Assembly: GCF_001654455.1 (NCBI RefSeq)
Contig: NZ_CP015772.1
Span: 1,302,001 to 1,366,000, forward strand
Direction: 5' to 3'
Length of the DNA: 64,000 nucleotides
Source of the DNA: Niabella ginsenosidivorans
GTDB lineage: Bacteria > Bacteroidota > Bacteroidia > Chitinophagales > Chitinophagaceae
Position 1 is the first letter of the stretch. Each line of letters opens with the position of its first letter. The notes beneath the pieces were generated by a model, which was given only the letters and a program-made list of their open reading frames with translations, was not told the origin of the DNA and searched no databases. A program made the position numbers and the translations under genes. This document shows positions 26,391 to 51,384 of the stretch, piece by piece.

Positions 26391-26400
26391 CGTTGTTTTT

Positions 26401-27321: not shown

Positions 27322-27386
27322 CACTTCAAAAAATTTCAGGTAGTCTTCCGTATTACTGATTGCTCTGAGCCGGTGCCCGATCCCTT

Positions 27387-28452: not shown

Positions 28453-28525
28453 CAAATTTAGCAGCTATTATCCGTTGTCTTTATATCCGTGGGATTGATT
28501 AATAATATTCGATATTTTTTTCACC
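28453..28525 (-). promoter_or_regulatory. Putative promoter and upstream box of the Dyp peroxidase gene
   Basis: On the minus strand TAAATTTG (28453-28460) fits the Bacteroidota -7 form TAnnTTTG, 107 bases before the Dyp ATG; no -33 TTTG is present at the proper distance. Starting 44 bases further upstream, plus-strand ATATTCGATAT then TTTTTTCACC (28505-28525) matches a site at 42264-42284 in 20 of 21 bases with almost the same spacing. Confidence 0.55.
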
Positions 28526-28534
28526 GTTTTTAAC

Positions 28535-28551
28535 AGGAACAATTGTTTCCT
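28535..28551. promoter_or_regulatory. Near-palindromic operator candidate
   Basis: AGGAACAATTGTTTCCT reads almost the same on both strands (AGGAA-ACAATTGT-TTCCT with one base missing on the left). It lies between the divergent Dyp peroxidase and TauE/moaD genes next to the shared 21-base box. A regulator dimer could bind here; none is identified. Confidence 0.35.
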
Positions 28552-28746
28552 CTTAATATTATAATAATTATTATTGTACACCATTCAATAAGCACCGCTT
28601 TTTGGGCAGTATTACAATACAATTTACTAAAGAATTGACTTATATAATGGGCGGAATTTAACGGGTTCCTGCATTAAAAGACAATAATGCAGATTTTTCC
28701 GGGAAAACCGGTATGTCTTTTCAAAAGTTTCCTTTTGCAGAAGGTA

Positions 28747-28754
28747 TATCTTTG
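28747..28754 (+). promoter_or_regulatory. Putative -7 element of the TauE-moaD-moaE-fdhD-fdhF operon
   Basis: TATCTTTG matches the Bacteroidota -7 consensus TAnnTTTG and lies 41 bases before the TauE/SafE ATG. It is identical to the -7 element of the initiator tRNA gene at 51469. No TTTG is seen 19 bases upstream of it, so the -33 half is weak. Confidence 0.45.
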
Positions 28755-28795
28755 TAACAGTCAGCACCGGATTTAAAATTGTTGATACCTGTACC

Positions 28796-29557
28796 ATGCA
28801 GCACTGGGAATTATTGCTTTTTTTTGGGATCATCGCTTTTATTTATGCTTCTGTGGGGTTTGGCGGCGGATCCAGCTACCTGGCGGTTTTGGCCCTGTAT
28901 GCGCTTCCTTTTAAAGAACTGCGTTTAATAGCGCTGATATGCAATATTATAGTGGTTACCGGTGGTGTTTATATTTATATAAAGAATCATCAGGTACGCT
29001 GGAAAAAGATCCTTCCGCTTGTGGTGCTGAGCGTGCCGATGGCGTATTTAGGCGCAATTGTGCGCATCAGCCAGGATGTTTTTTTTGTTATTCTCGGGTG
29101 CAGCCTGGTTATTGCAGCCGTTCTGTTATGGATAAAGAGCAGCCCTGCTTCCATTGCTGATATAAAGGAACCGCAAAAGAGCAGCTTTATAAAGAACGGC
29201 GCATTGGGGGGTGCTATCGGTTTTTTATCGGGTATGGTAGGCATTGGTGGCGGTATTTTTCTTTCGCCGGTACTGAATTTAATGAAATGGGATACGCCGC
29301 AGAAAGTAGCAGCCACTGCCAGCCTGTTTATACTGGTAAACTCTGTGGCGGGTATTGCAGGGCAGCTTACAAAGCTTCCCGGGGAGATGAATTATTACAG
29401 GATCGTTCTGTTATGCCTGGCGGTTTTTATCGGGGGACAGGCAGGATCCCGGATGGCCATAAAATTCAACCCGCTGGTCATCCGCCGCCTGACGGCCCTG
29501 TTGGTACTGGGCGCCGGGGTGGAAGTTCTGTTCAAACATTTACCTTTGTTTTTTTAA
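28796..29557 (+). CDS. TauE/SafE-family membrane permease
   Basis: A 253-residue protein with about eight hydrophobic segments and the two TauE/SafE halves: IAFIYASVGFGGGSSYLAVLALY at the N-terminus and GALGGAIGFLSGMVGIGGGIFLSPVLNLM in the middle. The family exports sulfite, sulfoacetate or related sulfur anions across the inner membrane. It is the first gene of the moaD-moaE-fdhD operon, 15 bases before moaD. A link with sulfur trafficking for cofactor synthesis, or with an anion substrate of the molybdenum enzyme, is inference. Confidence 0.88.
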   Translation: MQHWELLLFFGIIAFIYASVGFGGGSSYLAVLALYALPFKELRLIALICNIIVVTGGVYIYIKNHQVRWKKILPLVVLSVPMAYLGAIVRISQDVFFVILGCSLVIAAVLLWIKSSPASIADIKEPQKSSFIKNGALGGAIGFLSGMVGIGGGIFLSPVLNLMKWDTPQKVAATASLFILVNSVAGIAGQLTKLPGEMNYYRIVLLCLAVFIGGQAGSRMAIKFNPLVIRRLTALLVLGAGVEVLFKHLPLFF

Positions 29558-29572
29558 ACCGGGTTATAAAAA

Positions 29573-29815
29573 ATGGAAATAGCTGTATTGGCATTTGGTA
29601 TTGTAAAAGAGATCTTCGGGGCAGCATCCGTGCACAGGGAACTGCATGATGGAGCTACGGTACTGGAATTAAAAAACGGGCTGGCAGCTTCTTACCCGGC
29701 TTTGAAGAAATTAAGCACCTGCCTGATTGCTGTAAATAATGAATATGCCGGCGACGACCAGGTCATTCACCCGGATGATGAAATAGCCGTTATTCCACCG
29801 GTAAGCGGCGGGTAA
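29573..29815 (+). CDS. moaD: Molybdopterin synthase sulfur-carrier subunit MoaD
   Basis: An 80-residue ubiquitin-fold protein ending in IPPVSGG. The C-terminal diglycine is the site that becomes a thiocarboxylate and donates sulfur to precursor Z (cPMP). MEIAVLAFGIVKEIFG and YPALKKLSTCLIAVNNEYA fit the family, and the length is normal. It is activated by the MoeB-like protein at 36176 and pairs with MoaE, encoded nine bases downstream. Confidence 0.92.
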   Translation: MEIAVLAFGIVKEIFGAASVHRELHDGATVLELKNGLAASYPALKKLSTCLIAVNNEYAGDDQVIHPDDEIAVIPPVSGG

Positions 29816-29824
29816 AAAGAATGT

Positions 29825-30241
29825 ATGATTGATGTAATTATATCTGACCGGCCACTGGATACTGCTGCCTGCATCAGCAGCGCAACAGATGCAGCATGTG
29901 GCGGTGTGGTTAGTTTTGCCGGCGTTGTAAGGAACAGCACCAACAACAAAAAAGTGCTGCGGCTGGAGTATGAATGTTATGAACCGATGGCGTTGAAGGA
30001 AATGAAGAAAATTGCGAAGGCAGCTATTCGTTTATATGCTGCCCGGAGCATTGTCATTCAACACCGCACCGGTATTTTATATACAGGGGATATTGCTGTG
30101 GTCATTGTAGCAGGCGCACCGCACCGGGAAGCGGCTTTTGATGCCTGCCGCTACGCCATTGATACGCTGAAGCAAACAGTGCCTATATGGAAAAAAGAAG
30201 TTTTTGAGGACGGCGAAGAATGGGTGTCGGCGCATGCATAA
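29825..30241 (+). CDS. moaE: Molybdopterin synthase catalytic subunit MoaE
   Basis: A 138-residue protein with the MoaE pattern: GGVVSFAGVVRNSTNNKKVLRLEYECYEPMALKEM, IVIQHRTGILYTGDIAVVIVAGAPHREAAFDACRYAIDTLKQTVPIWKKE. The Lys residues of the closing VPIWKKE segment and the His/Arg of HRTG form the active site that receives the MoaD C-terminus. It converts cPMP into molybdopterin. It follows moaD by nine bases. Confidence 0.95.
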   Translation: MIDVIISDRPLDTAACISSATDAACGGVVSFAGVVRNSTNNKKVLRLEYECYEPMALKEMKKIAKAAIRLYAARSIVIQHRTGILYTGDIAVVIVAGAPHREAAFDACRYAIDTLKQTVPIWKKEVFEDGEEWVSAHA

Positions 30242-30319
30242 GAACCGCAGCTTTCCTGTTACTGTTGTTTTTTTTTATTAAATTTATAGAGCCGTCTTTT
30301 TTACTTAGAATTATACGGA

Positions 30320-31186
30320 ATGAAACATCCGCAAACAGCATCCATTAAGCAGATCCCCATTCAAAAAGTGAAGGATTTTACAAGCGCCCACCTGTCTGAT
30401 ATTCTTTCCGTTGAGGAGCCGCTTGAAATAAGGATCGGCTATGGCACACCGGGTAACCGGGTAGGAAAAAGCATTTCTGTGACAATGCGCACGCCGGGCA
30501 ACGACCCAGAGCTTGCGGTGGGCTTTTTGTTTACAGAGGGAATTATTGCTTCCGGCGACCAGGTACAGTCAGCTGGGCAGGTGCATATGGAATGCGTATC
30601 GCAAAAGGAAAATATTATCCGGGTAGAGCTGTCGGAAAATTTTATACCTCAGCTGGCACAATCGGACCGGAACTTTTATACTACTTCCAGCTGCGGGGTT
30701 TGCGGCAAAGGCTCTATCCAGTCTATAAGAACGGTTAGCCCTTTCAGCCAACTGGAAAAGCCCCGGCTAAGCCTGGCCGCAGCACTTCTTTACCAGCTAC
30801 CGGCAACATTAAGGGCGGCTCAAAGCGGCTTTGCGGCTACAGGTGGCATCCATGCGTCCGGGCTTTTCACCACCGGCGGAGAGCTGGTCTTGCTGCGTGA
30901 AGATGTGGGCCGGCATAATGCCCTTGATAAGCTCATTGGCAGTGCGCTGACAGATAAGCTGCTTCCGCTGAACCGGCATATTTTGCTTCTTAGCGGAAGG
31001 GCAAGCTTTGAGCTGATTCAGAAGGCAGCGATGGCGGGCATTGCCATTGTTGCTGCTATTGGCGCCCCATCGAGCCTGGCGGTTGATTTAGCCGGGGAAT
31101 TTGATATGACGCTTATCGGCTTTTTGAAGGAGAACCGATTCAATATTTATAACAAAAGCAGCTGTCATGAATTCATTAATCAGTAA
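30320..31186 (+). CDS. fdhD: FdhD, sulfurtransferase for formate-dehydrogenase-type enzymes
   Basis: A 288-residue protein with the FdhD signature: ISVTMRTPGNDPELAVGFLFTEGII, the catalytic loop TTSSCGVCGKGSI (CxxC), ATGGIHASGLF, LREDVGRHNALDKLIG, LLSGRASFELIQKAAMAGI and GAPSSLAVDLA. FdhD moves sulfur from a cysteine desulfurase to the bis-MGD cofactor, which activates formate-dehydrogenase-like molybdoenzymes. Its position between moaE and the FdhF-type gene indicates that the oxidoreductase at 31603 is its client. Length is normal. Confidence 0.95.
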   Translation: MKHPQTASIKQIPIQKVKDFTSAHLSDILSVEEPLEIRIGYGTPGNRVGKSISVTMRTPGNDPELAVGFLFTEGIIASGDQVQSAGQVHMECVSQKENIIRVELSENFIPQLAQSDRNFYTTSSCGVCGKGSIQSIRTVSPFSQLEKPRLSLAAALLYQLPATLRAAQSGFAATGGIHASGLFTTGGELVLLREDVGRHNALDKLIGSALTDKLLPLNRHILLLSGRASFELIQKAAMAGIAIVAAIGAPSSLAVDLAGEFDMTLIGFLKENRFNIYNKSSCHEFINQ

Positions 31187-31236
31187 TCACCATGGATAAA
31201 AACAATCCGTGCATTCGTGGCTAAAAAATAGAAAGA

Positions 31237-31590
31237 ATGAAAATCAGGATTAAAGGTAACTCATTAAGATACCGGTTGACCCGGTCTGAAGTAGCAAAAC
31301 TTTGGGAAGAAGGTTTTTTGGAGGAGCGGACAGCATTTACCGGCAATGCACTGGTGTATGCAATAGAAGCAGTAAGCAGTGATCAGCTTTCCGCCGATTT
31401 TAATGCGAACAGGCTTGTGCTGCATATACCAAAGCAAATGGCTGACGCGTTGTACAATACCGACAAAGTAGGCTTTGAGGATCAGTCCGGTACCGTAAGC
31501 CTGCTTGTGGAAAAAGATTTTGTATGCATTGACAATACAGAGGAAGACCAGAGCGATAATTATCCCAATCCATCCATTTCCTGTCAATAA
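31237..31590 (+). CDS. Small hypothetical protein, DUF7009-like
   Basis: 117 residues, cytoplasmic (no signal peptide): MKIRIKGNSLRYRLTRSEVAKLWEEG, then FTGNALVYAIEAV, LVLHIPKQMADALYNTDKVGFEDQS and an acidic C-terminus with two cysteines. I recall a family of this form (DUF7009) with the opening IKGNSLRYRLT, found next to molybdenum oxidoreductase genes. It sits 50 bases after fdhD and 12 bases before the FdhF-type gene, so it probably assists that enzyme. No function is known to me. Confidence 0.75.
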   Translation: MKIRIKGNSLRYRLTRSEVAKLWEEGFLEERTAFTGNALVYAIEAVSSDQLSADFNANRLVLHIPKQMADALYNTDKVGFEDQSGTVSLLVEKDFVCIDNTEEDQSDNYPNPSISCQ

Positions 31591-31602
31591 AATAATAACA
31601 AG

Positions 31603-34065
31603 ATGAAAGATGAACATCAGATGGAAGATGACAGCCGTTTAAAAAAAAAGGATCATTTCAATGAAAATGGGGGTTTGAAGGACAAGGGCTCTTTGAATGG
31701 GGATGCATATGAAAACGGAAAAGGAAAAAAAGATGATAAAGAACCGGATGCAGAGAACCCATATAAACTTACCGGCCACCTTAAGGTAACGCATGTAGAA
31801 AAAAAGGCTGCGGGCATACCGGCTGTAATAGCTTCTTTTGCCGATCTGATTGAAGAAAAAACGCTCATAAGGGGTACACGCGCTTTATTTAAGATGAACC
31901 AGTTTGGAGGTTTTGACTGCTCCAGCTGTGCCTGGCCCGACCCGGACGATGACCGCTCGCCAATTGCTGAATACTGCGAGAACGGTGCCAAGGCATTGGC
32001 AGAAGAAGCCACTACCAAAAAAGTAACGCCCGAATTTTTCCGGAAAAACTCGGTGTATGAGCTTTCTCAATTGGATGATTACCGGATAGGGAAAATGGGC
32101 CGGCTTACAGACCCGGTATACCTGCCCAAAGGCGGTACGCATTACCAGCCTGTTAGCTGGGAAGATGCGTTCCGGAAAATTGCGGCGCACCTTAATGCAC
32201 TGGATTCGCCGGACGAAGCAGCATTTTATACATCGGGCAGAACAAGCAATGAAGCCTCTTTTGTTTACCAGCTTTTTGCCAAAGAATACGGTACCAACAA
32301 TATGCCGGATTGTTCCAATATGTGCCATGAAACATCCGGATCCGGGCTGCGGCCTACCATCGGCATCGGAAAAGGAACAGTAAAGCTGGAAGATTTTTAC
32401 GATGCGGATGTCGTTATTATCATTGGGCAAAACCCCGGCACCAATGCTCCGCGTATGATGAGCGCGCTGGCAAAGTGTAAAGAAAACGGGGGAAAGATCA
32501 TCGCCATCAATCCTTTGCCTGAAACAGGGCTGATGGGCTTTAGGGATCCACAGGAAATAAAAGGCATCCTGGGGGATGGTGTAAAGCTTGCCGACCTTTA
32601 CCTGCCTGTAAAAATTAACGGGGATATGGCTTTGCTGAAAGCCCTTGAATGGCTGCTGCTTGATTTTGAAAAGAAATCGCCCGGGGAAGTGCTGGACAGG
32701 CAATTCATAGAAGAAAAAACGGTAGGCTATGATGCTTTCATTAAACAGTTTGAAGAATACCAACTGGAGGATCTTGCAGCAGAATCCGGCGTGGCTCCGG
32801 CCCTGCTTTATGACGCGGCCCAGATGATGGCTTTTAAAAAGCGCATCATCATCTGTTGGGGCATGGGCATCACACAACAGCCCAATGGAGTGGATATGGT
32901 AAAAGAGATGCTCAACCTGCTGCTGCTGAAAGGAAGTGTCGGTAAAAAGGGCGCAGGTGTTTGCCCGGTCCGGGGGCACAGCAACGTGCAGGGCAACAGG
33001 ACCATGCTGATTGATGAAAAGCCAACTGATGAGCAGCTGGATCGTCTTGAAAACTTCTTTGGATTTAAGATGCCCCGCAAGCACGGTTATGATGTGGTAA
33101 GGGCTATTAAAGCCATGTACGAAGGGAAGGTGAAAGTGCTGTTCTGTATGGGGGGAAATCTCCTGTCTGCCGCGCCGGACACCACTTACACTGCCAGCGC
33201 TTTAAGAAAGCTGAACCTTTTAGTTTGTGTTTCTACAAAATTGAACCGCGGGCACTTAATTCACGGAAAGGAAGCGCTGATCCTGCCCACTTATTCCCGT
33301 TCAGATTTTGATATAGTGAACGGCGAACTGCAGATCGTAAGCACGGAAAACTCAATGGGCGTGGTGCAGTCGTCAAAAGGTGTTTTAAAGGCGGTGTCTG
33401 ATAACCTGATCAATGAAACACAAATTGTTTGCCGCATGGCAATGGCTACTTTGGGCAGCAGGTCGGTGGTTGACTGGCAGCGTTTCCACGACAGTTATGA
33501 TGCGGTAAGGGACGCTATTGAACAGTGTATTCCCGGTTTTGAGAACTATAATGTACGGGTGCGCCGGAAAGGCGGTTTTTATTTGCCAAATGCAGCAAGG
33601 GATGAGCAGCGTTTTGCAGCGCAATATGATTACCGTGCGCCGTTTACCCTTACGGAAATTCCTGATAACAGGCTGGCTGACGATGAATATATGATGGCGA
33701 CCACCCGCACGCACGACCAGTTTAATACCACTATCTACGGGCTGGAGGATCGTTACCGCGGTGTTCATAACGGGCGCAGGGTGATCTTTATGAACAAAAG
33801 TGATATTGAGAAAGCCGGGTTTAAACCAGGGGAGAAGGTAGACCTGTTCAACTATGACGATGGTATAGAGCGCATTGCCCCGCTGTTTATTATTGTTTCC
33901 TATCCGATACCCAAGCGGAATACGGTTACTTATTTTCCAGAAACCAATGTGCTGGTTTCGATTAATAATGTTGTAAAGGAAAGTAATATGCCGGCGTCAA
34001 AATATGTGAAAATTAAGATCTGCAAACACGATCCTGAAATATACCAACGGATCAACCGGTTGTGA
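31603..34065 (+). CDS. FdhF/YdeP-family molybdopterin oxidoreductase
   Basis: An 820-residue bis-MGD enzyme of the group annotated FdhF/YdeP (formate dehydrogenase H-like alpha subunit). Residues about 100-130 carry GGFDCSSCAWPDPDDDRSPIAEYC, the altered N-terminal cysteine motif of this group. Cofactor-binding segments include FYTSGRTSNEASFVYQLFAKEYGTNNMPDCSNMCHETSG, VIIIGQNPGTNAPRMM, CPVRGHSNVQGNRTM and the C-terminal TTRTHDQFNTTIYGLEDRYRG. The first 50 residues are an unusual, strongly charged low-complexity tail. No twin-arginine signal, so cytoplasmic. Electron partner and substrate are unknown; formate is only a guess from fdhD. Confidence 0.92.
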   Translation: MKDEHQMEDDSRLKKKDHFNENGGLKDKGSLNGDAYENGKGKKDDKEPDAENPYKLTGHLKVTHVEKKAAGIPAVIASFADLIEEKTLIRGTRALFKMNQFGGFDCSSCAWPDPDDDRSPIAEYCENGAKALAEEATTKKVTPEFFRKNSVYELSQLDDYRIGKMGRLTDPVYLPKGGTHYQPVSWEDAFRKIAAHLNALDSPDEAAFYTSGRTSNEASFVYQLFAKEYGTNNMPDCSNMCHETSGSGLRPTIGIGKGTVKLEDFYDADVVIIIGQNPGTNAPRMMSALAKCKENGGKIIAINPLPETGLMGFRDPQEIKGILGDGVKLADLYLPVKINGDMALLKALEWLLLDFEKKSPGEVLDRQFIEEKTVGYDAFIKQFEEYQLEDLAAESGVAPALLYDAAQMMAFKKRIIICWGMGITQQPNGVDMVKEMLNLLLLKGSVGKKGAGVCPVRGHSNVQGNRTMLIDEKPTDEQLDRLENFFGFKMPRKHGYDVVRAIKAMYEGKVKVLFCMGGNLLSAAPDTTYTASALRKLNLLVCVSTKLNRGHLIHGKEALILPTYSRSDFDIVNGELQIVSTENSMGVVQSSKGVLKAVSDNLINETQIVCRMAMATLGSRSVVDWQRFHDSYDAVRDAIEQCIPGFENYNVRVRRKGGFYLPNAARDEQRFAAQYDYRAPFTLTEIPDNRLADDEYMMATTRTHDQFNTTIYGLEDRYRGVHNGRRVIFMNKSDIEKAGFKPGEKVDLFNYDDGIERIAPLFIIVSYPIPKRNTVTYFPETNVLVSINNVVKESNMPASKYVKIKICKHDPEIYQRINRL

Positions 34066-34166
34066 TGTGCGAGGGTTGGCAGGTTCAGGGCGCAACTCGT
34101 CACGCTGGTTCCTTATGTGCGTCGCAAATTGTATTTCCCCGTCACTCCTGGCTAACGCATTCTTCT

Positions 34167-34565
34167 TTAGAGCCCTTCCATATAAAAGACATTAAACTTA
34201 TGGCCATCCGGGTCGGCAAAAACAAAACCGTAATAGCCCTTTCCGAATTCTTCAGGAGGGGAAATGATTTTTCCACCCGCTTTTTCCACTTCTTTTGCCC
34301 AATGATCTGCCTGGTCTTTACTTTCAGCAGAGAGGGTGAAACAAACTTCGGTTACATCTTGTGCGTTGGCTATTTCACTTTTTATATTGTTTTTGAGGAT
34401 GTCTTTCAAAAAAAAGTGTATCACAAAACCATTCTTACCCACCAGGAAGCTGGTAAGTTCCGCATTGGGAGCTCCATTGGGCTTAAATCCAAGTTCAGTA
34501 TAAAATTTTGTTGTTCGCTCTAAATCGCTTGCGGCTAAATTTGCCCATATCATTTTTGGATTCAT
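34167..34565 (-). CDS. VOC-family protein (glyoxalase/bleomycin-resistance-like)
   Basis: 132 residues: MIWANLAASDLERTTKFYTELGFKPNG, FLVGKNGFVIHFFL, EVCFTLSAESKDQADHWAKEVEKAGGKIISPPEEFGKGYYGFVFADPDGHKFNVFYME. The two beta-alpha-beta-beta-beta halves are visible, and the terminal DPDGHKFNVF carries a typical metal-ligand region. Substrate unknown. It converges on the FdhF-type gene and is followed upstream on the same strand by a reductase and an SRPBCC gene, a common small-enzyme cluster in this phylum. Confidence 0.88.
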   Translation of the reverse strand: MNPKMIWANLAASDLERTTKFYTELGFKPNGAPNAELTSFLVGKNGFVIHFFLKDILKNNIKSEIANAQDVTEVCFTLSAESKDQADHWAKEVEKAGGKIISPPEEFGKGYYGFVFADPDGHKFNVFYMEGL

Positions 34566-34715
34566 ATCATTAAAATTTAGAAAGTTTCAGATTGGATGCA
34601 CCTGCCTGATCTTTCATGAACGGTATATTGTTTTTGCGGTTTCAGCATCCGGCCGGGGCGCTTTTGATTTGAGCAGGCATCCCTGTAAACGTTTGGATTG
34701 TCACCTTAAACTGTT

Positions 34716-35300
34716 TTAAGGCAGCCGGTAGGTGGCAATAATGACACCGGTATCTGCAGCCACGGTATCAACTAACCGCAGCCTGGTTAACTGTTTACTA
34801 TCCTTAAAAAGCTGATGTCCCTTTCCAAGCACCAGCGGGTGGATCTGCAATAAATATTCATCAATCAGATCCTGCTGCATCAGCGACCGGACCAGTATAC
34901 CACTGCCAAAAATGATCAGTGTTTTGTTGTGCTCCTTTTTGAGCTTGGCAATGCTGCCGGCGGCATCGCCTGCCAGCAAAGTGGAATGCTCCCAGGGAAG
35001 CTTATAATCAGGGTTGTGAGAAACAACAAATTTCTGAACACTCGTAAGCGCCTGTGCCATAGGATGAGCGGGTTGCCGTACATGCCAGGCTTCATAAAGA
35101 TCTTCGTATGTTATGCGCCCTGCAAGCAACGACCAGCCGCCGCCCATATATTTACCGACCACTTTTTGTATTTCAGGATCATTCCCTGCTACCGCCCAAC
35201 CACCGTATTCAAAACCATCGCGGGTATCCTCGTCCGGGCGGCCGGGTGCCTGCATCACACCATCGAGCGTCAGGGCCTCAACTGCTATTATTTTGCTCAT
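34716..35300 (-). CDS. Dihydrofolate reductase-family protein (RibD C-terminal-like)
   Basis: 194 residues: IIAVEALTLDGVMQAPGRPDEDT, GGWSLLAGRITYEDLYEAW, KFVVSHNP, IAKLKKEHNKTLIIFGSGILVRSLMQQDLIDEYLLQIHPLVLGKGHQLF. This matches the YyaP/YwjB-type group that shares the NADPH-binding fold of the RibD reductase domain and dihydrofolate reductase. The physiological substrate is not known. It is separated from the SRPBCC gene by nine bases, so co-transcribed with it. Confidence 0.9.
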   Translation of the reverse strand: MSKIIAVEALTLDGVMQAPGRPDEDTRDGFEYGGWAVAGNDPEIQKVVGKYMGGGWSLLAGRITYEDLYEAWHVRQPAHPMAQALTSVQKFVVSHNPDYKLPWEHSTLLAGDAAGSIAKLKKEHNKTLIIFGSGILVRSLMQQDLIDEYLLQIHPLVLGKGHQLFKDSKQLTRLRLVDTVAADTGVIIATYRLP

Positions 35301-35309
35301 CCGGAAAGG

Positions 35310-35729
35310 TCAATGGGTTTCTGTATAAGTCTTAAAATTGTCCAGTATTGCCTGCCAGCCTTGTTGTTGCATGGCTACGGGGTTTTCATTTTCTGCTTCA
35401 AACAAGGTTGTTGTTTTTGTTTTATCGCCCGCCTCTTCAAAAGTGATCGTTACTTTTCTGCCATCCGCTATAGTATATACTATTTTTTTACCGTCAATGA
35501 TCTCATCATACACTGCTTCAAAATCAAAGCCGGCGCTGCCGTCTTTTGCTTCCATGCGGGCAGTATATTTCCCGCCTGCTTTTAAATCGTTTACTGCACG
35601 TGGGCAATACCAATCATCTGAAGCAAAATTCCAACGGGTAATATGCCCGGGGTCTGTATAATATTCCCAAACCTTTGCTGCATCAGCGTTTATGATAGTT
35701 TGTACGGAGATCTCCTGTCTTTTTTTCAT
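35310..35729 (-). CDS. SRPBCC/AHSA1-like domain protein
   Basis: 139 residues from ATG 35729, preceded by AAGGATACA; an ATG eight codons upstream lacks a ribosome site. Sequence: ISVQTIINADAAKVWEYYTDPGHITRWNFASDDWYCPRAVNDLKAGGKYTARMEAKDGSAGFDFEAVYDEII, then KVTITFEEAGDKTKTTTLFEAE and QQGWQAILDNFKTYTE. This is the START-like helix-grip fold of AHSA1-type proteins, whose ligands are mostly unknown. It starts a three-gene minus-strand cluster. A possible -7 element TACTTTTG lies about 110 bases upstream (35839-35846, minus strand). Confidence 0.88.
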   Translation of the reverse strand: MKKRQEISVQTIINADAAKVWEYYTDPGHITRWNFASDDWYCPRAVNDLKAGGKYTARMEAKDGSAGFDFEAVYDEIIDGKKIVYTIADGRKVTITFEEAGDKTKTTTLFEAENENPVAMQQQGWQAILDNFKTYTETH

Positions 35730-35753
35730 TGTATCCTTTTTTTTAATGAGCAA

Positions 35754-36175
35754 TCCTGCTTTTCAGTTATGTTTATGCCCTTGTGCATGATAATACCAAC
35801 AAAGTCAGTCATGTCAGCCTGTTAACTCACGGGCAATACAAAAGTAGCAATGGAAATAAAAGATAATGATATGGGTTTACGGCATTTTAAAGGGGCAATT
35901 GCGGCAAAAGGGCCTTTTAATACTAAAGATGTTTCGCGCTAGCCGGAAAGGCGGTACCGGCATTTTAGAGAACTTGTCAATAACAGGCACTCATAAAAGC
36001 GCTGCATTTAAGCCTGCCGGCAGGGAGTTCATTGGTCCGATCATTTGAGCTGAACATTCAGAACGGGAGACCTCATCTGTTATAGAGGCTTTTCCATTGC
36101 TGCCGCTATCGCGGCATCCGGTCGGTCCCGATGGCTATCAGATGGCGCCCTTAGGTACACTCATTTCCAGTAACT
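35754..36175. other. Gene-free gap of about 420 bases
   Basis: No convincing gene. It contains the possible minus-strand -7 element of the SRPBCC gene (TACTTTTG, 35839-35846). A 60-codon open frame at 35866 has no recognisable features. Confidence 0.5.
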
Positions 36176-37234
36176 TTATGTTATTATTTTTTCTATACCC
36201 CCCTTTAATGAGTATACAGTTACATCAGGAAAATGTTCTTTGATCAGCCGTACAGCAATGGCACTCCGGCTGCCCGAAGCGCAATAACAGATGACGGGAC
36301 CGGAAAAAGAAAGCCCGTCTAAATGATCGCTCAATTCATCAAGCGGAATATTTTTTCCGCCAATATTAAAGTGCTCATGTTCTTTTTTGGTGCGCACATC
36401 TATCAATTGATGATTGCTGGCTTGCTGCAAATCGGTAAAGCTGATGGTTGCAACGGTTACAGGCAGCTCCGTAATTTTTACATCCGGTCTTTTTTTCAGA
36501 TGAATGATACGGGTGCTGCCGTCCCGGGCATTGATCATCCATAATTTCCCGGCCAGCAGTTCCTCAGCCCCGGTAAAATATTTTATGGCTTCGTTTGCCT
36601 GCATACAACCCACAATGCCTGCCAGGGTTGGGATTACCCCACCTTTGGCACAGTTGGGCACCTGCGCTTTTTCTGCATCAGGAAACGCATCCCGGTAATT
36701 GGGTGAATAGCTGCCGTCCTGCTGCAATACATTCCAGATGCTCATCTGCCCTTCATACTGATAGATAGCGCCATATATCAAAGGTCTGCCGGACAGCACG
36801 CAGGCATCATTTAATAAATATTTTGTTTCAAAGTTGTCTGTTCCTTCTATCACCAGGTCAACCTCTGCGATCAGCTCCATGATATTGGATGCCGTAATAC
36901 GGAAAGGATAGGAGATCAGGTTGGCCGATGGATTTTGCTGTTGTAGCTTTTTAGAGGCTACCTCAGCTTTCAGCAGGCCCAGATCCTGCGGTGTATATAA
37001 AAGCTGGCGGTGCAGGTTGCTTTCTGCCACCGTATCATCATCTGCAATGCAGATTGTGCCTATACCGGCTGCTGCCAGGTATTGCGCAGCAGGGCAGCCC
37101 AGGCCACCGGCTCCTACAATCAGTACCCGGGCCTTTTGCAAAAGCTGTTGAGCACTTTTCCCGAAACCCGGCAGGGCCATCTGGCAATGGTAACGTTCAA
37201 AGTAATCGGTCATTGCGGTTGATTGCTTTACCAA
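36176..37234 (-). CDS. moeB: MoeB/ThiF-family adenylyltransferase fused to a rhodanese domain
   Basis: 352 residues. Residues 10-245 are the E1-like domain: ARVLIVGAGGLGCPAAQYLAAAGIGTICIADDDTV, SNLHRQLLY, DLVIEGTDNFETKYLLNDACV, GMQ-like IYQYEGQMSIW, PNCAKGGVIPTLAGIVGCMQANEAIK. Residues about 265-350 are a rhodanese domain with LIDVRTKKEHEHFNIGGKNIP and the active-site loop CYCASGSRS. It should adenylate and help sulfurate the C-terminus of MoaD. The two CxxC zinc pairs of Escherichia coli MoeB are missing (SPNYRDAFPD where CYRC would be). The start may be the second ATG (MTDYFERYHCQ). Confidence 0.9.
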   Translation of the reverse strand: MVKQSTAMTDYFERYHCQMALPGFGKSAQQLLQKARVLIVGAGGLGCPAAQYLAAAGIGTICIADDDTVAESNLHRQLLYTPQDLGLLKAEVASKKLQQQNPSANLISYPFRITASNIMELIAEVDLVIEGTDNFETKYLLNDACVLSGRPLIYGAIYQYEGQMSIWNVLQQDGSYSPNYRDAFPDAEKAQVPNCAKGGVIPTLAGIVGCMQANEAIKYFTGAEELLAGKLWMINARDGSTRIIHLKKRPDVKITELPVTVATISFTDLQQASNHQLIDVRTKKEHEHFNIGGKNIPLDELSDHLDGLSFSGPVICYCASGSRSAIAVRLIKEHFPDVTVYSLKGGIEKIIT

Positions 37235-37261
37235 TAATTAATAATCTTTTATTCAATTTAT

Positions 37262-37951
37262 TCAATTATTTAATGCCAGTATATATTTATCAATATACAA
37301 TTGCTTTTCTCTGGATTTGTATTGTTGTATAAAACGCGGATGTTCCAGTACGGTTAAATGGCCAAAAAGCTTTGCTTCCCTGTTCAGCTTACTGATAAAA
37401 GCTGCATTTTTCTTTCCCAATATAAACACTTCCGAAGTATCCAACCCAAGGCTGATATGCTTTTTCAGAGAGCTTATCATAAAGTCTTTTACCGTTTCAA
37501 AAAGGACCGTATCATCATAATAATTGGCATTGAGCCATTTGCCGTCTTTTGTTTGCCGGGTGATTGCCAATGGAAAGGGAGAGTTGATATAAAAACGCTG
37601 ATAGAAATCTGCCACACCTCCATAAGCGGCTATCATTTCATACATAAAAACAGAAGACACTTCGTGTGTGTACGCTGATCTCATTTCAATGCCGCAAACG
37701 CTTTTCAGCCGCTTGGTATCAGTAAATGGCACGCCGGTTACACCTGCGCCGTGCCTGCTGGGATTGATCCCTATAATGAACTTGCGTTGCAGGGTGTCCC
37801 TGTAATACTTGTGGTAAAACTGTTGCATGATCTCTATCGTTTCAGGATTGTCCAGGTAGGGATTGATTACCTGGAAACCTGCGGGCAGCTTGCCGGAGTA
37901 CCGCAGCTGGCGGTTGAAATCAACAACTTTATCGGCAAAGGTTTTTGTCAT
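37262..37951 (-). CDS. SMUG2-like uracil-DNA glycosylase-superfamily protein
   Basis: 229 residues. IIGINPSRHGAGVTGVPFTDTKRL is the active-site and substrate pocket segment, and VLEHPRFIQQYKSR near the C-terminus is the HPR(x) DNA-intercalation motif of the superfamily; EVFILGKKNAAFISKLN precedes it. The DUF4918/SMUG2 group in Bacteroidota has this exact pattern (by recall). It would excise uracil or damaged pyrimidines from DNA. It stands between moeB and mobA on the same strand, without an obvious functional link to molybdenum cofactor synthesis. Confidence 0.82.
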   Translation of the reverse strand: MTKTFADKVVDFNRQLRYSGKLPAGFQVINPYLDNPETIEIMQQFYHKYYRDTLQRKFIIGINPSRHGAGVTGVPFTDTKRLKSVCGIEMRSAYTHEVSSVFMYEMIAAYGGVADFYQRFYINSPFPLAITRQTKDGKWLNANYYDDTVLFETVKDFMISSLKKHISLGLDTSEVFILGKKNAAFISKLNREAKLFGHLTVLEHPRFIQQYKSREKQLYIDKYILALNN

Positions 37952-38023
37952 AAAAAACAGTTTGAGGCCCCGGTGCGATAGTAACCGTTTTTATTATTCA
38001 CTGCAATGCTTCGGTCCCTATTA

Positions 38024-38629
38024 TCATTTGCTCAGCAGGACTTTTGCTTTTTCTGCATCCTCAGGCGTGTTTACGTTCATCAGGGCTTCGGGTTGGGCTG
38101 GTCGCAGGAGCGTAAGATTACTGTTCTGCAATACTTTCCTAGGGCAGGTAATTCCTTTTCCTAAAAAGTCCAATAGTACAGGATAGCTTTCCGGTTCCCA
38201 AATTGCGGTCAATGGTTCGGGCAAACCATCATGCGGGCTTTCATAAGCGGTTGCGATCCTTTTCCTATCTCTGTTTTCAATTAAAAAACGGATCGTTGCT
38301 TCACCCAGCAACGGAAGATCGCAGGCAATGACCAGCCAGGCCTTATCCCTTTGGGAGCGCAGGGCAGAAAGGATACCGCCAAAAGGCCCCATGTTCAGAA
38401 ACGTATCGGGCAGTGTTTTATAAGCAGCATCCATCTCTTTTGCCTGATCCGGGCGGCAGGAAATAAACACTTCCTCACAAAAATGGCTCAGCAGATCTGC
38501 TGCATAATAGCGTTGTTCTTTATTATGCCATCTGATCAGGTCTTTGTCTGTTCCCATGCGCCTGCTTTTGCCACCGGCAAGCACCAGGCCGTTTAACGGG
38601 AGCGTATTATTTTTTTCTTTTGAGATCAT
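38024..38629 (-). CDS. mobA: Molybdenum cofactor guanylyltransferase MobA
   Basis: 201 residues with the nucleotidyltransferase P-loop LVLAGGKSRRMGTDKDLI, GPFGGILSALRS, and the metal-binding ACDLPLL. C-terminal LRPAQPEALMNVNTPEDAEKA is typical (the NVNTPED motif). MobA attaches GMP to molybdopterin to give MGD, needed by the bis-MGD enzyme at 31603. Its start overlaps the 3' end of moaC by 23 bases, which suggests translational coupling. Confidence 0.93.
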   Translation of the reverse strand: MISKEKNNTLPLNGLVLAGGKSRRMGTDKDLIRWHNKEQRYYAADLLSHFCEEVFISCRPDQAKEMDAAYKTLPDTFLNMGPFGGILSALRSQRDKAWLVIACDLPLLGEATIRFLIENRDRKRIATAYESPHDGLPEPLTAIWEPESYPVLLDFLGKGITCPRKVLQNSNLTLLRPAQPEALMNVNTPEDAEKAKVLLSK

Positions 38630-39086
38630 TTTTACCTCCGCTTTTTTCTATCAGCTTTATTTCCCGGATCACCATATCGTGGCTCAGTGCCTTGCACATA
38701 TCATAAATAGTAAGTGCCGCTACCGAAGCGCCGGTGAGTGCTTCCATTTCTACGCCGGTCTTGGCCTCAACGCCCGCTGTACAATAAATGACCATGTCCT
38801 GCTGACCGTTCAGCTCAATATTGATCTCGCAATTGTCCAGCCCTATGGGATGGCAAAGCGGTATCAGCCCGCCGGTTTTCTTGGCTGCCATAATTCCTGC
38901 AATGACCGCTGTCTGAAAAACCGAACCTTTACGGGTCATAAAATCATCTTTCCGTAGCGTTTCCATAACCTGTTCCGGCAGGGTTATCATTGCCCGCGCA
39001 ACTGCATTTCTGCGGGTGATCTTCTTTTCACTTACATCTACCATAACCGGTTGGGAGTTCTTATTTACATGAGAAAGTTCAGCCAT
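38607..39086 (-). CDS. moaC: Cyclic pyranopterin monophosphate synthase MoaC
   Basis: 159 residues with the full MoaC pattern: RNAVARAMITLP, KGSVFQTAVIAGIMAAKKTGGLIPLCHPIGLDNCEI, VYCTAGVEAKTGVEMEALTGASVAALTIYDMCKALSHDMVIREIKLIEKSGGK. The catalytic Lys lies in AKTGVEMEALTG and the final KSGGK is characteristic. It converts the MoaA product into cPMP. A 320-base gap separates it from moeA, so moaC-mobA may have its own promoter. Confidence 0.96.
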   Translation of the reverse strand: MAELSHVNKNSQPVMVDVSEKKITRRNAVARAMITLPEQVMETLRKDDFMTRKGSVFQTAVIAGIMAAKKTGGLIPLCHPIGLDNCEINIELNGQQDMVIYCTAGVEAKTGVEMEALTGASVAALTIYDMCKALSHDMVIREIKLIEKSGGKNDLKRKK

Positions 39087-39408
39087 AAGTAAAATTATAA
39101 ATTAAAAATTGTATACTTATCTACAGGGAATACTATACTTTGCCCTCCATTTAAATTGCGCTATATTCATTTTATTTTGCCCTGAATATCTTTTTCAAAG
39201 ATAATCGAATTTATTTGAGGTATCGGGTGTTCCGCTGCATGCTATCAGCTATCAAATGTTGCCGGTTGTTAAAAACTGACCTTAATTACGGATACAGGGC
39301 TCTTTTAAACGAGGCCGGGCAATTGCAGTCTGCCGGGTAGTGCATCAGTGGCGATAAAAACAAATAAAAACAATTGCAGAAGAATTGATACAGCCCCTGA
39401 TAGCATTA
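39087..39408. other. Gap of about 320 bases upstream of moaC
   Basis: AT-rich and gene-free. On the minus strand TATCTTTG (39196-39203, approximate) fits a -7 element about 110 bases before moaC, without a clear -33. AATATCTTTTTCA near 39186-39198 resembles part of the 21-base box found at 28505 and 42264, but the match is short. Confidence 0.35.
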
Positions 39409-40611
39409 CTATGCCGGCTGGTAGCGCCACACCTTATAAACCTCGCCCTTCTTAAACTCATTTTTCTCCAATGGTAATTCTATAAAAGCATCCGTATAGA
39501 TGAGGTTGGAAAAATCACCGGAGCCGTTGGTATCAACAGGTGTTGCCTGCCAAAGGCCCTGATGGCTGGTATCCAGTTTTACCTGTGCAAAATATTGCAG
39601 GGGATAAGGAAAATAAATGTCCTTTTGTAAAACGGCATACCCCTGTAACTGTGATTGTATTCCCAGGGTATTTTCCAGCCAGGGAATAAAATACCGGTGC
39701 AGGCACATGAATACGGAAACCGGGTTGCCCGGAAACGCAAATACTAAGGTGCGGTTCCCCTGCGTACCAAACCAGAAGGGTTTTCCGGGGCGCTGCTGCA
39801 CTTTGTGAAATAATTTCTCCACACCCAGTTCTTCCAGCACCTGCGGCACATGATCAAATTTCCCCATAGAAACACCACCGCTCATCAGCAATACATCATA
39901 GTTGCTCAGGCAGCGGGCCAGTTGGTTGCTAATCAGCTCAGCATCGTCTTTCCAATGCTGCAGTTGTGCATTGATCTTATATTTTTCCAGTACCGATTTG
40001 ATTACAGTTCCGTTGGAACGCCGTAACTGGTAAGGCGTGGGCGTTTCTTCAGCGTTTACCAGTTCATCGCCTGTGGTAATGATCACTGTCCGGGGAAGTT
40101 TTTTGACCCAAAGCTTTGTTTTTCCAACAGCGGCGGCCAGCCCGGTCAGTGGGGGAGTAATGATCCTGCCGGCATTGGCTACCACATCTCCCTGCTTTTT
40201 ATCCTTTCCCCTAAGATGAATATTCTGGCCCTTTTTGATCTCAATATTTTTTATGGTGGCTATGCCATCAGCTATATCAATGTCTTCATACCGGATCACA
40301 GTGTCTGCAGAATCATCCAGCGCCGCACCGGTCATTATTTCAATACAATCATCTTTTGCTGTAATCGTAACAGGATTTTCACCTGCGGCTTGCGTCGCCT
40401 TTATTTTGAAAGAACGCAAGCCATCATTATACGTACTGAATTTTATTGCGATACCATCAACGGTGGATCTGTTGAACGGCGGTAAATCTCTGTCGGCATA
40501 AAGGTGCTCAGCTAACACACGCCCTAACGCTGTTTCATAAAAAACTTCTTCAACACCAAAGTGGCGAAGCTGTGATTGAATAGTTTTTTCTGCCTGTTCT
40601 ACGGTAATCAT
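39409..40611 (-). CDS. moeA: Molybdopterin molybdenumtransferase MoeA
   Basis: 400 residues: ALGRVLAEHLYADRDLPPFNRSTVDGIAI at the start (the PPFxxSxxDG motif), IMTGAALDDSADTVIRYED, VVITTGDELV, and LLMSGGVSMGKFDHVPQVLEELG in the MPT-binding domain, then FAFPGNPVSVFMCLHRYFIPWL. It inserts molybdate into adenylated molybdopterin. It lies four bases after the moaA stop codon, so the two are one operon. Confidence 0.95.
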   Translation of the reverse strand: MITVEQAEKTIQSQLRHFGVEEVFYETALGRVLAEHLYADRDLPPFNRSTVDGIAIKFSTYNDGLRSFKIKATQAAGENPVTITAKDDCIEIMTGAALDDSADTVIRYEDIDIADGIATIKNIEIKKGQNIHLRGKDKKQGDVVANAGRIITPPLTGLAAAVGKTKLWVKKLPRTVIITTGDELVNAEETPTPYQLRRSNGTVIKSVLEKYKINAQLQHWKDDAELISNQLARCLSNYDVLLMSGGVSMGKFDHVPQVLEELGVEKLFHKVQQRPGKPFWFGTQGNRTLVFAFPGNPVSVFMCLHRYFIPWLENTLGIQSQLQGYAVLQKDIYFPYPLQYFAQVKLDTSHQGLWQATPVDTNGSGDFSNLIYTDAFIELPLEKNEFKKGEVYKVWRYQPA

Positions 40612-40615
40612 ACTA

Positions 40616-41602
40616 TCAGCCTCCTATTGTTGCCATTGATTGCTGCGCTGATTTTTGTGCCGCCAGTCTGTTCTCTGCTTCCCATCCGTCTGTTGGTTTT
40701 TTTAGGACGGCATTGGTGATCATTGTTTCCAGCTCTTCATCGGTACATCCTCCACGTATTATTTCTTTTAAGTTGAATGTGCCTGCATCATACAGGCAGG
40801 TCCGCAAAACTCCTGTAGGCGTAACGCGCAACCTGTTGCAGGAGCCGCAAAACGACCGGGTATAGGCGGCTATGATGCCTATATTTCCCTTATGCCCGGG
40901 AATATGATAATTAAAAGAAGTGGAATGGGGCGCGTCTGTAATTTTCTGAATACCGGGAAAATGTTCCCGGATATGTTCCAGTATGCGCAGGTAACTCCAT
41001 GCCGGCGAAACGGGATGCGTGCCGCCGTTGAAGGGCATTTCTTCAATGAAGCGGACGCTTACCGGTGCTGTTTTAGTGAGCTGTATCAAAGGAACAATAT
41101 CAGTAATATTGCAGTGTTCCATTACCACTGTATTTATCTTTACGGCAATATCGTCAGCTAAAAGCGCATCAAGCGTTTTTAATACTTTATCCAACCCGTC
41201 TCGGCGGGCGATGCGGATAAAACGGTTTTTATCCAAAGTGTCCAGGCTAAGGTTTACAGATTTAATGCCCATTCTTTTTAATTCAGGAACCAAAGGTGCG
41301 GTCAGTAACCCGTTGGTGGTAAGCGTCAGCTCCTGCAACCCGTTCATGAGCGAAAGGTTTTGTAAGAAGGGCAATACATCTTTTCTTACAAAAGGCTCAC
41401 CACCGGTGATGCGTATTTTTTCTATGCCCATCTTTACCAGCAGCGAACAGATGCGCAGCATTTCTTCATAGGTCATCAGCTCTTTGCGGGAGCGCCAGTC
41501 CAGTCCTGCTTCGGGCATACAATAGGTACAGCGCAGGTTGCACCTGTCCGTAACGGCAAGCCGCAAATAATTGATGATGCGTCCGTAGCTGTCTGTTATC
41601 AT
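40616..41602 (-). CDS. moaA: GTP 3',8-cyclase MoaA
   Basis: 328 residues from ATG 41602; this start overlaps the upstream stop codon as ATGA and gives the expected N-terminus MITDSYGRIINYLRLAVTDRCNLRCTYCMP. The radical-SAM cluster is CNLRCTYC, and the second iron-sulfur cluster is in FCGSCNRLRVTPTGVLRTCL. The chain ends in the diglycine IGG that MoaA needs. ITGGEPFVRKD and LTTNG are also present. It starts molybdenum cofactor synthesis from GTP. Confidence 0.96.
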   Translation of the reverse strand: MITDSYGRIINYLRLAVTDRCNLRCTYCMPEAGLDWRSRKELMTYEEMLRICSLLVKMGIEKIRITGGEPFVRKDVLPFLQNLSLMNGLQELTLTTNGLLTAPLVPELKRMGIKSVNLSLDTLDKNRFIRIARRDGLDKVLKTLDALLADDIAVKINTVVMEHCNITDIVPLIQLTKTAPVSVRFIEEMPFNGGTHPVSPAWSYLRILEHIREHFPGIQKITDAPHSTSFNYHIPGHKGNIGIIAAYTRSFCGSCNRLRVTPTGVLRTCLYDAGTFNLKEIIRGGCTDEELETMITNAVLKKPTDGWEAENRLAAQKSAQQSMATIGG

Positions 41603-42123
41603 GGCTGTTCCTGTTCTGCCCGGCTCACCACTACTTTGCTCAGGCATTTAATAAACCTGCGCCCTGTTTTGAAATCGGTTGGCGTTACCACTAAGATCCT
41701 GCTGCGCATATCCTGCAAAGCCTCACCGTTTATTGAAGTGACGATAAAAATATGATTACCTGTGGGCGAATTAAAGATCTCATTCCAGGAATATACCACT
41801 TTGTACTGATCGCTTGCAACAAAGGTGAAATAAAACTCGCTGAACCGTTTCAGATTATCTTCTTTTAGCGGTATGTCTTTCAACAGGTCTTTTACCAGAA
41901 CGCCCTTTAGCTGTTTTAATGTGTCGCGTGGCTCTCCTTTATGATTGGTGATGACGATGTCGGGGATAGGGCCGGAAGGCGATCGCTCAATAGCTGCAAG
42001 CGTAAACTTCAGCTCGTTTGTGACCGCCCCGGTGACCAGGAATTCGTTGGTGGCTTCGATCGCCTTCTGTCCCCGGGTGGCTATGCATAAAAGCATCAGC
42101 ATTATTGTTATCAGTTGCTTCAT
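41599..42123 (-). CDS. Secreted protein with possible sulfite-oxidase-type molybdopterin-binding fold
   Basis: 174 residues with a signal peptide (LITIMLMLLCIATRGQ). The mature part begins FLVTGAVTNELKFTLAAIERSP, like the VTGxVxxPLxxTLxDL opening of sulfite-oxidase-fold molybdopterin domains. YFTFVASDQYKVVYSWNEIFN and IFIVTSINGEALQDMRSRILVVTPTDFKTGRRFIKCLSKVVV also recall that fold, but no cofactor Cys is in the usual place and the protein is short. It overlaps moaA by four bases, so the two are translationally coupled. It may bind or deliver the cofactor outside the cytoplasm, or be a degenerate relative. Function unproven. Confidence 0.6.
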   Translation of the reverse strand: MKQLITIMLMLLCIATRGQKAIEATNEFLVTGAVTNELKFTLAAIERSPSGPIPDIVITNHKGEPRDTLKQLKGVLVKDLLKDIPLKEDNLKRFSEFYFTFVASDQYKVVYSWNEIFNSPTGNHIFIVTSINGEALQDMRSRILVVTPTDFKTGRRFIKCLSKVVVSRAEQEQP

Positions 42124-42590
42124 CTTTAATGATTCGTTATTCCCGGCTGGTGCATTTGTATTTAAAAACCGCCATCCGGCTTTTCCTGTTTAATAAACGG
42201 ATGATTACTGCCCCAAATTTAGCATAAGTTGAACCATGAATTGCTCATTTCTGATAATAGATGATATTCGACATTTTTTTCACCTTTTCTGATACAAATA
42301 ATTCCCTGCCTGTGCCTGCTAATTATTATTTTGCAATAACCTGCTGCAGCGCAGTTTTATCATGTATTTCAACATACTTATGCAGGGGTACCGGACTGTG
42401 GTACATACGATAGCATCATTACTCCGGGCAGGAACAGAGCGGATGTTTGTAACAGTGACCGTTGTCATAAAAAATTAAGCAGCGCTTGGGGTTTGCTGCA
42501 TTCCCGGCTATGTAGATCCCTGAAGACAGGAGACGCTTCAAAAATGATTCCTTTGCTTACTTCAATCTTAATAAATCTTAAATTCTTTTT
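42124..42590. other. Divergent intergenic region between the moaA operon and dnaK
   Basis: 467 bases with no gene. The left half carries the minus-strand promoter candidate and the shared 21-base box. Downstream of the box TAATTATTATT (42320-42330) also has a counterpart at 28565-28575. I found no convincing TTTG-N19-TAnnTTTG promoter and no CIRCE-type inverted repeat before dnaK. Confidence 0.5.
42214..42284 (-). promoter_or_regulatory. Putative promoter and upstream box of the moaA-moeA operon
   Basis: On the minus strand TAAATTTG (42214-42221) fits the -7 form TAnnTTTG, 91 bases before the first ATG of the operon; the flanking CAAATTTAGCA is identical to that at 28453-28463. Starting 42 bases further upstream is plus-strand ATATTCGACAT then TTTTTTCACC (42264-42284), 20 of 21 bases equal to the site at 28505-28525. 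No -33 consensus is seen, as expected for an activator-dependent promoter. Confidence 0.55.
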
Positions 42591-51156: not shown

Positions 51157-51230
51157 TTTAAGATCCCGCCGCCGGCGGAACAGGTAAAAAAATAATGAGA
51201 GGGAAATGCTGAAAAAGAAAGGAACCATCC
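51157..51230 (-). promoter_or_regulatory. Riboswitch expression platform: hairpin at the ribosome site
   Basis: In the minus-strand leader CCGCC-GGC-GGCGG (plus-strand 51166-51178) can form a five-base-pair hairpin whose 3' arm runs into GGGATC, the only purine-rich stretch near the ATG. This could hide the ribosome-binding site when ligand is bound, which would be translational control. No T-run terminator is present. Confidence 0.5.
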
Positions 51231-51316: not shown

Positions 51317-51384
51317 CGCTGAAAACTTTATTGGCTTGCTGAACATTCAAACAAGCGCGCTTTCATTTTTTGAAAGAACGGATG

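Follow-up and report, generated by a model that had tools for sequence, protein, structure and literature searches.

The window analysed here is a stretch of 64,000 nucleotides of Niabella ginsenosidivorans (contig NZ_CP015772.1, positions 1,302,001 to 1,366,000), in which two copies of a 21-base box, A and B, lie among genes for a chaperone with putative co-chaperones, a haem peroxidase, a molybdenum enzyme and the synthesis of its molybdenum cofactor (Moco) (Table 1). The box reads GGTGAAAAAAATRTCGAATAT on the minus strand and the two copies differ by a single A/G. Each box separates two divergent transcription units, since box A splits the operon of the Dyp-type haem peroxidase from the tauE operon and box B splits the moaA operon from dnaK. 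An initial annotation of this DNA had pointed out both copies, together with a minus-strand element 42–44 bases away within identical sequence, and we found this element, TAAATTTG, at gaps of 44 and 42 bases from boxes A and B, in both cases within CAAATTTAGCA. The stretch that it had placed 36–40 bases away on the opposite side is TAATTATTATT, for which we count gaps of 39 and 35 bases, one base differently. It had the boxes facing the Dyp gene and the moaA operon, which is correct, and overlooked the divergent partners (the tauE operon at A, dnaK at B); the 21 bases that it saw as conserved belong to a wider conservation of 38 bp plus two outer boxes. Judged from sequence, the repeated box is real and evolutionarily conserved, and it is sited between predicted back-to-back promoters.

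Boxes A and B are the sole matches within 3 mismatches in the window, where dinucleotide shuffles average 0.02 matches and 0 of 100 shuffles reach two. In the 5.63-Mb genome, we found boxes A and B plus one match with 3 mismatches, and a reversed control pattern likewise gives one; the box is not scattered at random through the genome. As a probe for other genomes the bare 21-mer was rejected. Within 3 mismatches it matches 83 of 147 family genomes, the reversed control matches about equally often, and apart from the window's own two boxes no match in the 147 genomes is nearer than 2 mismatches, so the 21-mer is too short and rigid for this use.

The box is the core of an element of ~125 bp, in which two 14-bp half-sites are flanked by TAnnTTTG on one side (the + side) and TAnnATTG on the other (the – side). 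In an alignment of 10 sites, the invariant columns run from –5 to 32 (38 bp), columns kept in 8 of 10 sites reach out to –11, and the two outer boxes are conserved. The half-site consensus is about TRTCGAATAnYATG. Half-site 2 has invariant columns T16, G20, A22, A24 and T28, and at the positions 21 bases upstream of these we found T in 10/10, G in 7/10, A in 10/10, A in 6/10 and T in 10/10 sites. When 14 sites were compared, the 21-bp direct repeat scored 7.07 of 14 identities, which is the top value among direct shifts of 12 to 45 and is equalled by 7 of 5000 random column sets. It is therefore probable that the half-sites form a direct repeat 21 bp apart, and we prefer this to a palindrome because the direct repeat takes in half-site 1. 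Moco genes are known riboswitch targets, which is a point for a structured RNA (a cofactor riboswitch or a small RNA) in place of a DNA site. However, neither intergenic region has an Rfam match at the gathering threshold, RNAalifold predicts 0 pairs in the 10-site alignment, and transcription in either direction is inferred to start beyond the site. We rejected an RNA element on the absent Rfam match and the zero consensus pairs, and we give it next to no credence.

To describe the promoters on either side, we scored the two flanking boxes at every site. Exact TAnnTTTG is present at +68 to +72 in 7 of the 9 sites that have a gene on the + side, the other two (G154B and G157B) having TTAATTTG, and in 0 of the 5 sites that do not (G154A, G157A, PedA, PnoA and G1016b). 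A site was placed in the second group if we saw no credible gene read from its + side up to the next element, or over 2 kb; the five members of this group stem from about two independent lineages. TAnnATTG is present at –38/–39 in 11 of 14 sites, the exceptions being window element B, PedB and G1138b; where window element B has the weak TTATTTTG, the dnaK-side elements of relatives carry TATTATTG or TAATATTG. The background frequency of TAnnTTTG in the window is once per ~3300 bases per strand. Sigma-A promoters of Bacteroidota have a –33 TTG element. At both window sites the 35 bases upstream of TAAATTTG contain no TTG, in agreement with the initial annotation. The element promoters thus resemble known sigma-A promoters of the phylum in the TAnnTTTG –7 box and differ in the missing –33 element and in the TAnnATTG of the – side. 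For the mapped Flavobacterium psychrophilum transcriptome, TAnnTTTG is reported as the consensus sigma-A –7 box, spanning –12 to –5 (PMC9723704). By that register, the + promoter would have half-site centres at about –60 and –81, and the – promoter at about –52 and –73.

AraC proteins can activate or repress, the geometry alone does not tell activation from repression, and half-site 2 is partly palindromic; a repressor or nucleoid protein could thus sit between the divergent promoters, with the genes released under stress. In contrast to what such a site would suggest, the element is located upstream of the inferred promoters and not over them, and neither window TAAATTTG is preceded by a TTG. 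The absent –33 element combined with a site upstream of the promoters fits dependence on an activator, and we consider release from repression to be improbable.

To determine which genomes carry the element, we searched with R1, a sequence-only covariance model of the 10 sites, scoring the 150 best first-look candidates per genome in the genus and, under strict filters, 8 candidates per genome in the family and the class. Among 17 genus genomes (the window's included), R1 gave exactly two matches of 62–78 bits in each of G000, G154 and G157, and the best of the other matches listed is 19.5 bits. Two strong matches each, and no other at E 0.01, came from Pedobacter AK013 and P. nototheniae, both of which contributed sites to R1; in 18 genomes scanned with R1, strong matches were present only in two Pedobacter and the best other match was 23.5 bits. 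When 399 Pedobacter-family genomes were searched, we found two new carriers outside the model, G1016 (65.3 and 60.7 bits) and G1138 (39.9 bits), with a best match of 24.9 bits in the other genomes. Other R1 matches are at most 23.2 bits in 394 family genomes and at most 23.0 bits in 395 class genomes. None of the weak matches that we checked for island genes (9 of 9 in the family, 4 of 13 in the Pedobacter family, 0 of 5 in the class) adjoins such genes; one lies near a 31% match to the hybrid kinase of the window and one near a 45% bestrophin-like fragment.

In the genus, the Moco/YdeP cluster is found in the same gene order in G147, G154, G157 and G158. When the regions upstream of the orthologues were compared, as the initial annotation had proposed, the element was present in G154 and G157 and absent from G158 and G147, so the box as a property of the Moco cluster was rejected. 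Together with the absence of scattering through the genome, this gives a mixed outcome for the refuting conditions that the annotation had set. In G154 and G157, dnaK again faces moaA; one element precedes tauE and another separates moaA from dnaK. In both genomes Dyp is on other contigs, so that the tie of box A to the tauE side is no weaker than that to Dyp. Around moaA of G147 and G158, the sequence that we read (only about 1.5 kb for G158) has no adjoining dnaK. A Dyp of 65–82% identity is retained by six box-less genus genomes.

A 33-bp matrix made from five genus sites also matched two Pedobacter loci, L062 and L065, with two sites each. These sites lie between dnaK and Dyp (in L065 the 3-dmu-like gene also lies between them), from which we conclude that the link to Dyp is conserved. 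The Pedobacter order is (fdhA-DUF7009-)fdhD-dnaK facing Dyp-cbpA-cbpM-AraC, with the fdhD and YdeP-like genes behind dnaK on the same strand; the available L065 sequence begins at fdhD. G1016 has the full island, and in G1138 the site is between dnaK and cbpA. With Dyp orthologues as the guide, we found the element at only L062 and L065 of 44 Dyp loci (matrix scan of all, model on L057–L076). Overall, dnaK is the most constant neighbour: all 7 of the 7 clear carriers have an element that flanks it, and all 7 also have Dyp, cbpA, tauE or moaA flanked by that element or by a second one. The link between Dyp and Moco genes that the initial annotation had drawn is supported, with the element upstream of Dyp in L062, L065 and G1016 (TAAATTTG at +70) and of moaA and tauE in G154 and G157; as a peroxidase–Moco pairing it was incomplete, since it left out dnaK and did not name the candidate AraC gene.

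The strong elements are paired in one region per genome, as they would be if they shared only ancestry, through a recent intergenic duplication or a mobile sequence kept without function. However, the sequence between the conserved columns differs widely within a genome, each site type is kept separately in its relatives, and a + side promoter box persists only at sites with a gene to that side; we consider ancestry alone very improbable.

The geometry of the site points to a protein of the AraC/XylS type, of which the island encodes one. To identify a candidate regulator, we compared 44 AraC proteins: the homologues listed for the genus with at least 140 bits, some with lower scores, and the ones encoded next to the Pedobacter-family islands. 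The four residues NYLG stand at the start of the first recognition helix of the first helix-turn-helix (HTH-1) in 9 of the 44, all from the 8 carriers (seven clear ones plus G150, which is counted on weak sites), G154 having two. The other 35 lack NYLG, including carrier paralogues and the best homologue of 10 of the 13 box-less genus genomes; in the remaining 3, the best AraC match is no better than 1e-17. The clade is therefore present in 8 of 8 carriers and in 0 of 10 sampled box-less genus genomes. In a 44-row whole-protein tree, a branch supported at 100/99 sets the nine NYLG proteins apart from the others. The clade's araC lies within the island in 6 of 8 carriers (the window, both Pedobacter, G1016, G1138 and G150), and the AraC proteins of the L062 and L065 islands are 56–57% identical to the window's. 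Because box-less genomes keep the Moco/YdeP cluster (G147 and G158) or Dyp (the six genomes above), the element follows the AraC clade and not the predicted targets. The DNA-binding half of the window's AraC matches solved AraC-type domains (best 3.5e-13; AraC itself 2.2e-9). For the N-terminal cupin domain of sensing and dimerisation, it reaches 19.7 bits (AraC_binding), against a cut-off of 21.1; a predicted structure of the protein shows N-terminal strands, but its mean predicted local distance difference test score is only 44.7 (3 sequences), and we made no further use of it. A search of plasmids for this AraC gave no match at 1e-30, and a class-wide search at the strict limit of 1e-75 found only G000 (1 of 395 genomes).

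The hybrid kinase of the window adjoins araC on the same strand and itself carries HTH_18, so the same operator could have another binder, such as this hybrid system in the window genome or some factor encoded elsewhere, the AraC gene then being a passenger. Homologues of the kinase lie near the NYLG AraC genes of G157 (52%) and G154 (60%), outside the island; in G150, a 35–42% match immediately precedes the weak site that lies before fdhD; and AraC is unlinked to the elements in G154 and G157. In contrast, we found no kinase match at E 1e-5 in Pedobacter islands L062 and L065 and only partial matches of 33% and 25% in the stretches of G1016 and G1138, while the NYLG AraC is the only regulator clade seen in all carriers. 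We therefore regard another binder as unlikely, though less so than a repressor, and take the AraC-family gene at 24070-24921 as the predicted cognate regulator. The activator idea of the initial annotation is supported, in that the regulatory site is shared and keeps a fixed promoter distance.

We observed a conserved site with a defined geometry and gene context that co-occurs with one AraC clade. It is likely that the boxes are operators of an AraC/XylS-type regulator, in the first place the one encoded at 24070-24921, which would bind the two half-sites as a dimer and activate a chaperone/peroxidase/molybdoenzyme stress regulon; from sequence we infer the binding, the dimer, the activation, the start sites, the operon extents and the inducing signal. 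According to this model, the AraC dimer would bind two 14-bp half-sites in direct repeat 21 bp apart, and the predicted TAAATTTG promoters have a sigma-A –7 box without a –33 element. Bound AraC, centred about 60 bp (+) or 52 bp (–) upstream of the inferred start, would recruit RNA polymerase to one of the two promoters or to both. Element A would drive Dyp-cbpA-cbpM one way and tauE-moaDE-fdhD-DUF7009-YdeP-like oxidoreductase the other way; element B would drive secreted protein-moaA-moeA-moaC-mobA one way and dnaK the other way. The outcome would be a co-ordinated stress response of chaperone and co-chaperone, haem peroxidase, and molybdenum oxidoreductase with its cofactor supply, and one regulator probably switches on these genes jointly in some Bacteroidota. 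FdhD activates such molybdoenzymes, and their need for cofactor would explain the Moco genes. The initial annotation had thought of a redox regulon; the predicted targets (DnaK, CbpA, CbpM, Dyp, FdhD and the YdeP-like enzyme) fit protein damage, peroxide or acid equally well.

Several observations weigh against this interpretation. G158 and G147 have a closer moaA (77% and 75%) than G154 and G157 (64% and 63%), and are without the element. The independent events are few, as G154 and G157 resemble each other in every respect and the sites of L062, L065 and G1016 are almost copies of one another. The AraC genes of the clade in G154 and G157 are on another contig than the island. The NYLG signature was chosen after the alignment had been viewed, although the whole-protein tree gives support to the clade as such. 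The G150 assembly is damaged (72% complete) and has matches of 19.0 bits between cbpA and dnaK and 18.9 bits before fdhD, a third of 14.0 bits inside dnaK and a top match of 19.5 bits about 170 kb away; its sites are at background level and its status as a carrier comes only from the position of two weak matches. The second site of G1138, before another AraC-type gene (HTH_18) and with TAAATTTG at +72, has 24.0 bits, no stronger than chance matches elsewhere. The TAAATTTG columns belong to the search model, so the sites found lean towards having them; the – side boxes are TAnnATTG and not TAnnTTTG, with only TTATTTTG at window element B; and tauE has a canonical TATCTTTG close upstream, at 28747-28754, which is a possible second promoter independent of the element. 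A 56-bp shift that takes in the outer AT-rich box scores 7.1 as compared to 7.07 for the 21-bp repeat, and half-site 2 scores 8.19 of 14 against its own overlapping reverse complement, so that a palindromic core is possible.

The half-site spacing of arabinose AraC is ~21 bp. Like the operators of AraC/XylS activators (arabinose AraC and the Pseudomonas aeruginosa sphA regulator), the element has two half-sites, probably in direct repeat, upstream of a promoter and is predicted to be paired with a two-HTH regulator; unlike them, it lies about midway between divergent promoter-like boxes, centred 52–60 bp upstream of the inferred starts, and its genes are stress and cofactor genes and not a catabolic pathway. 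For the sphA regulator, three promoters with two direct-repeat half-sites are described, and just one additional site is predicted genome-wide (PMC3900636). The predicted regulon also resembles the EvgA-YdeO-YdeP acid-stress circuit of E. coli in that an FdhF/YdeP-family oxidoreductase is placed with an AraC-type regulator, YdeO being of the AraC family. It differs in the phylum, in the neighbours (dnaK, cbpA-cbpM, Dyp, fdhD and Moco genes) and in fdhA, which in NCBIfam is below the YdeP equivalog cut-off (672 as compared to 1473 bits) and above that of TIGR01701, FdhF/YdeP (850 as compared to 582). Raised YdeP alone can give E. coli acid resistance, an effect for which its authors offer no explanation (PMC4283999).

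Tentatively, and with slightly less than even confidence, we suggest that an undescribed NYLG AraC clade commands a portable Bacteroidota stress island from bidirectional operators that may number only two in a genome, coupling DnaK/CbpA/CbpM and Dyp to a YdeP-like molybdoenzyme that depends on FdhD and, in one genus, also to its own cofactor pathway. If this is true, it would amount to a proteostasis response in which a molybdenum enzyme is made as one of the tools. The analysis provides a concrete predicted regulator–operator pair, with half-sites and promoters, for a stress island of two Bacteroidota families, and places the poorly understood FdhF/YdeP family beside the chaperone machine and Dyp under one predicted control, where a stress role is testable by single knock-outs. 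Among the papers listed by a literature search, with most subscription journals outside its reach, none is about this island or operator.

Table 1. Features of the two elements and their surroundings (window coordinates unless a locus is named).
Feature	Position	Strand	Basis or remark
Hybrid two-component kinase	19939-24000	-	AraC-type HTH at end (HTH_18)
AraC-family regulator, candidate binder	24070-24921	-	PF12833 (HTH_18) 3.7e-21, 75.7 bits, cut-off 33.6
Glyoxalase/3-dmu-like protein	25573-26007	-	Pfam/NCBIfam scans
CbpM-like MerR_2 protein	26103-26495	-	MerR_2 match; presumably CbpM, from its place behind the CbpA-like gene
DnaJ-family protein, CbpA-like	26401-27324	-	Pfam/NCBIfam scans
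Dyp-type haem peroxidase	27387-28346	-	Pfam/NCBIfam scans
-7 box facing Dyp-cbpA-cbpM (element A, + side)	28453-28460	-	TAAATTTG; same at +70 in PedB, PnoB, G1016a upstream of Dyp
Half-site 2, element A	28501-28514	-	TATCGAATATTATT, columns 16-29
Box A, 21-base	28505-28525	-	Sequence match, window and genome search
Half-site 1, element A	28522-28535	-	TGTTAAAAACGGTG; spacing to half-site 2, 21 bp
Possible -7 box facing tauE (element A, - side)	28569-28576	+	TATTATTG; same place (-38/-39) in G154A, G157A upstream of tauE
tauE-moaD-moaE-fdhD-DUF7009-fdhA	28796-34065	+	fdhA of FdhF/YdeP family; order kept in G147, G154, G157, G158
Secreted protein-moaA-moeA-moaC-mobA-uracil-DNA glycosylase (UDG)-moeB	36176-42123	-	Pfam/NCBIfam scans
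-7 box facing secreted protein-moaA-moeA-moaC-mobA operon (element B, + side)	42214-42221	-	TAAATTTG
Half-site 2, element B	42260-42273	-	TGTCGAATATCATC
Box B, 21-base	42264-42284	-	Sequence match, window and genome search
Half-site 1, element B	42281-42294	-	TATCAGAAAAGGTG
Weak -7-like box facing dnaK (element B, - side)	42326-42333	+	TTATTTTG
dnaK	42591-44501	+	Pfam/NCBIfam scans
~100-residue protein of apparently one type	L140:8072-8374, L141:10228-10530, L212:10895-11203		By eye

In addition to these features, we noted several others in the island and its relatives. Three small genes lie between fdhA and moeB in the window. DUF7009 (31237-31590), between fdhD and the YdeP-like gene, is also present in G147, G150, G154, G157, G158, Pedobacter L062 and G1016, and was not detected in G155; it is possibly a maturation factor. 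The 174-residue protein at 41599-42123, which is probably secreted and overlaps moaA, has no Pfam or NCBIfam match, and its homologues precede moaA in G147 and G158 (partial in G158). Near dnaK and a DUF488 gene, there is a gene at 45787-46709 which we take to be bestrophin-like and whose first half is without a family match. Its homologues (about 51–53%) lie beside or near fdhA in G147, G150, G154, G157, G158, Pedobacter L062 and G1016, and the gene therefore looks like another member of the island.

A protein of ~100 residues is encoded beside the NYLG AraC gene in G157 and G154, and a look-alike, recognised by eye, directly follows cbpM in G1138. In G1016, a third possible element (G1016c, L210:7454-7523) scores 28.9 bits, at a distance of 13 kb from the first two; its TATATTTG is at +80, roughly a helical turn beyond the usual place, its – side has no TAnnNTTG, and we excluded it from the promoter-box counts. 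L057, a contig labelled Candidatus Dadabacteria, encodes a Dyp 83% identical to the window's and a DUF488 protein at 75%, and is probably a mislabelled or mixed bin. Elsewhere in the window, Rfam identified a piece of a group II intron at 2062-2179 (+) and a thiamine pyrophosphate (TPP) riboswitch at 51215-51322 (–).

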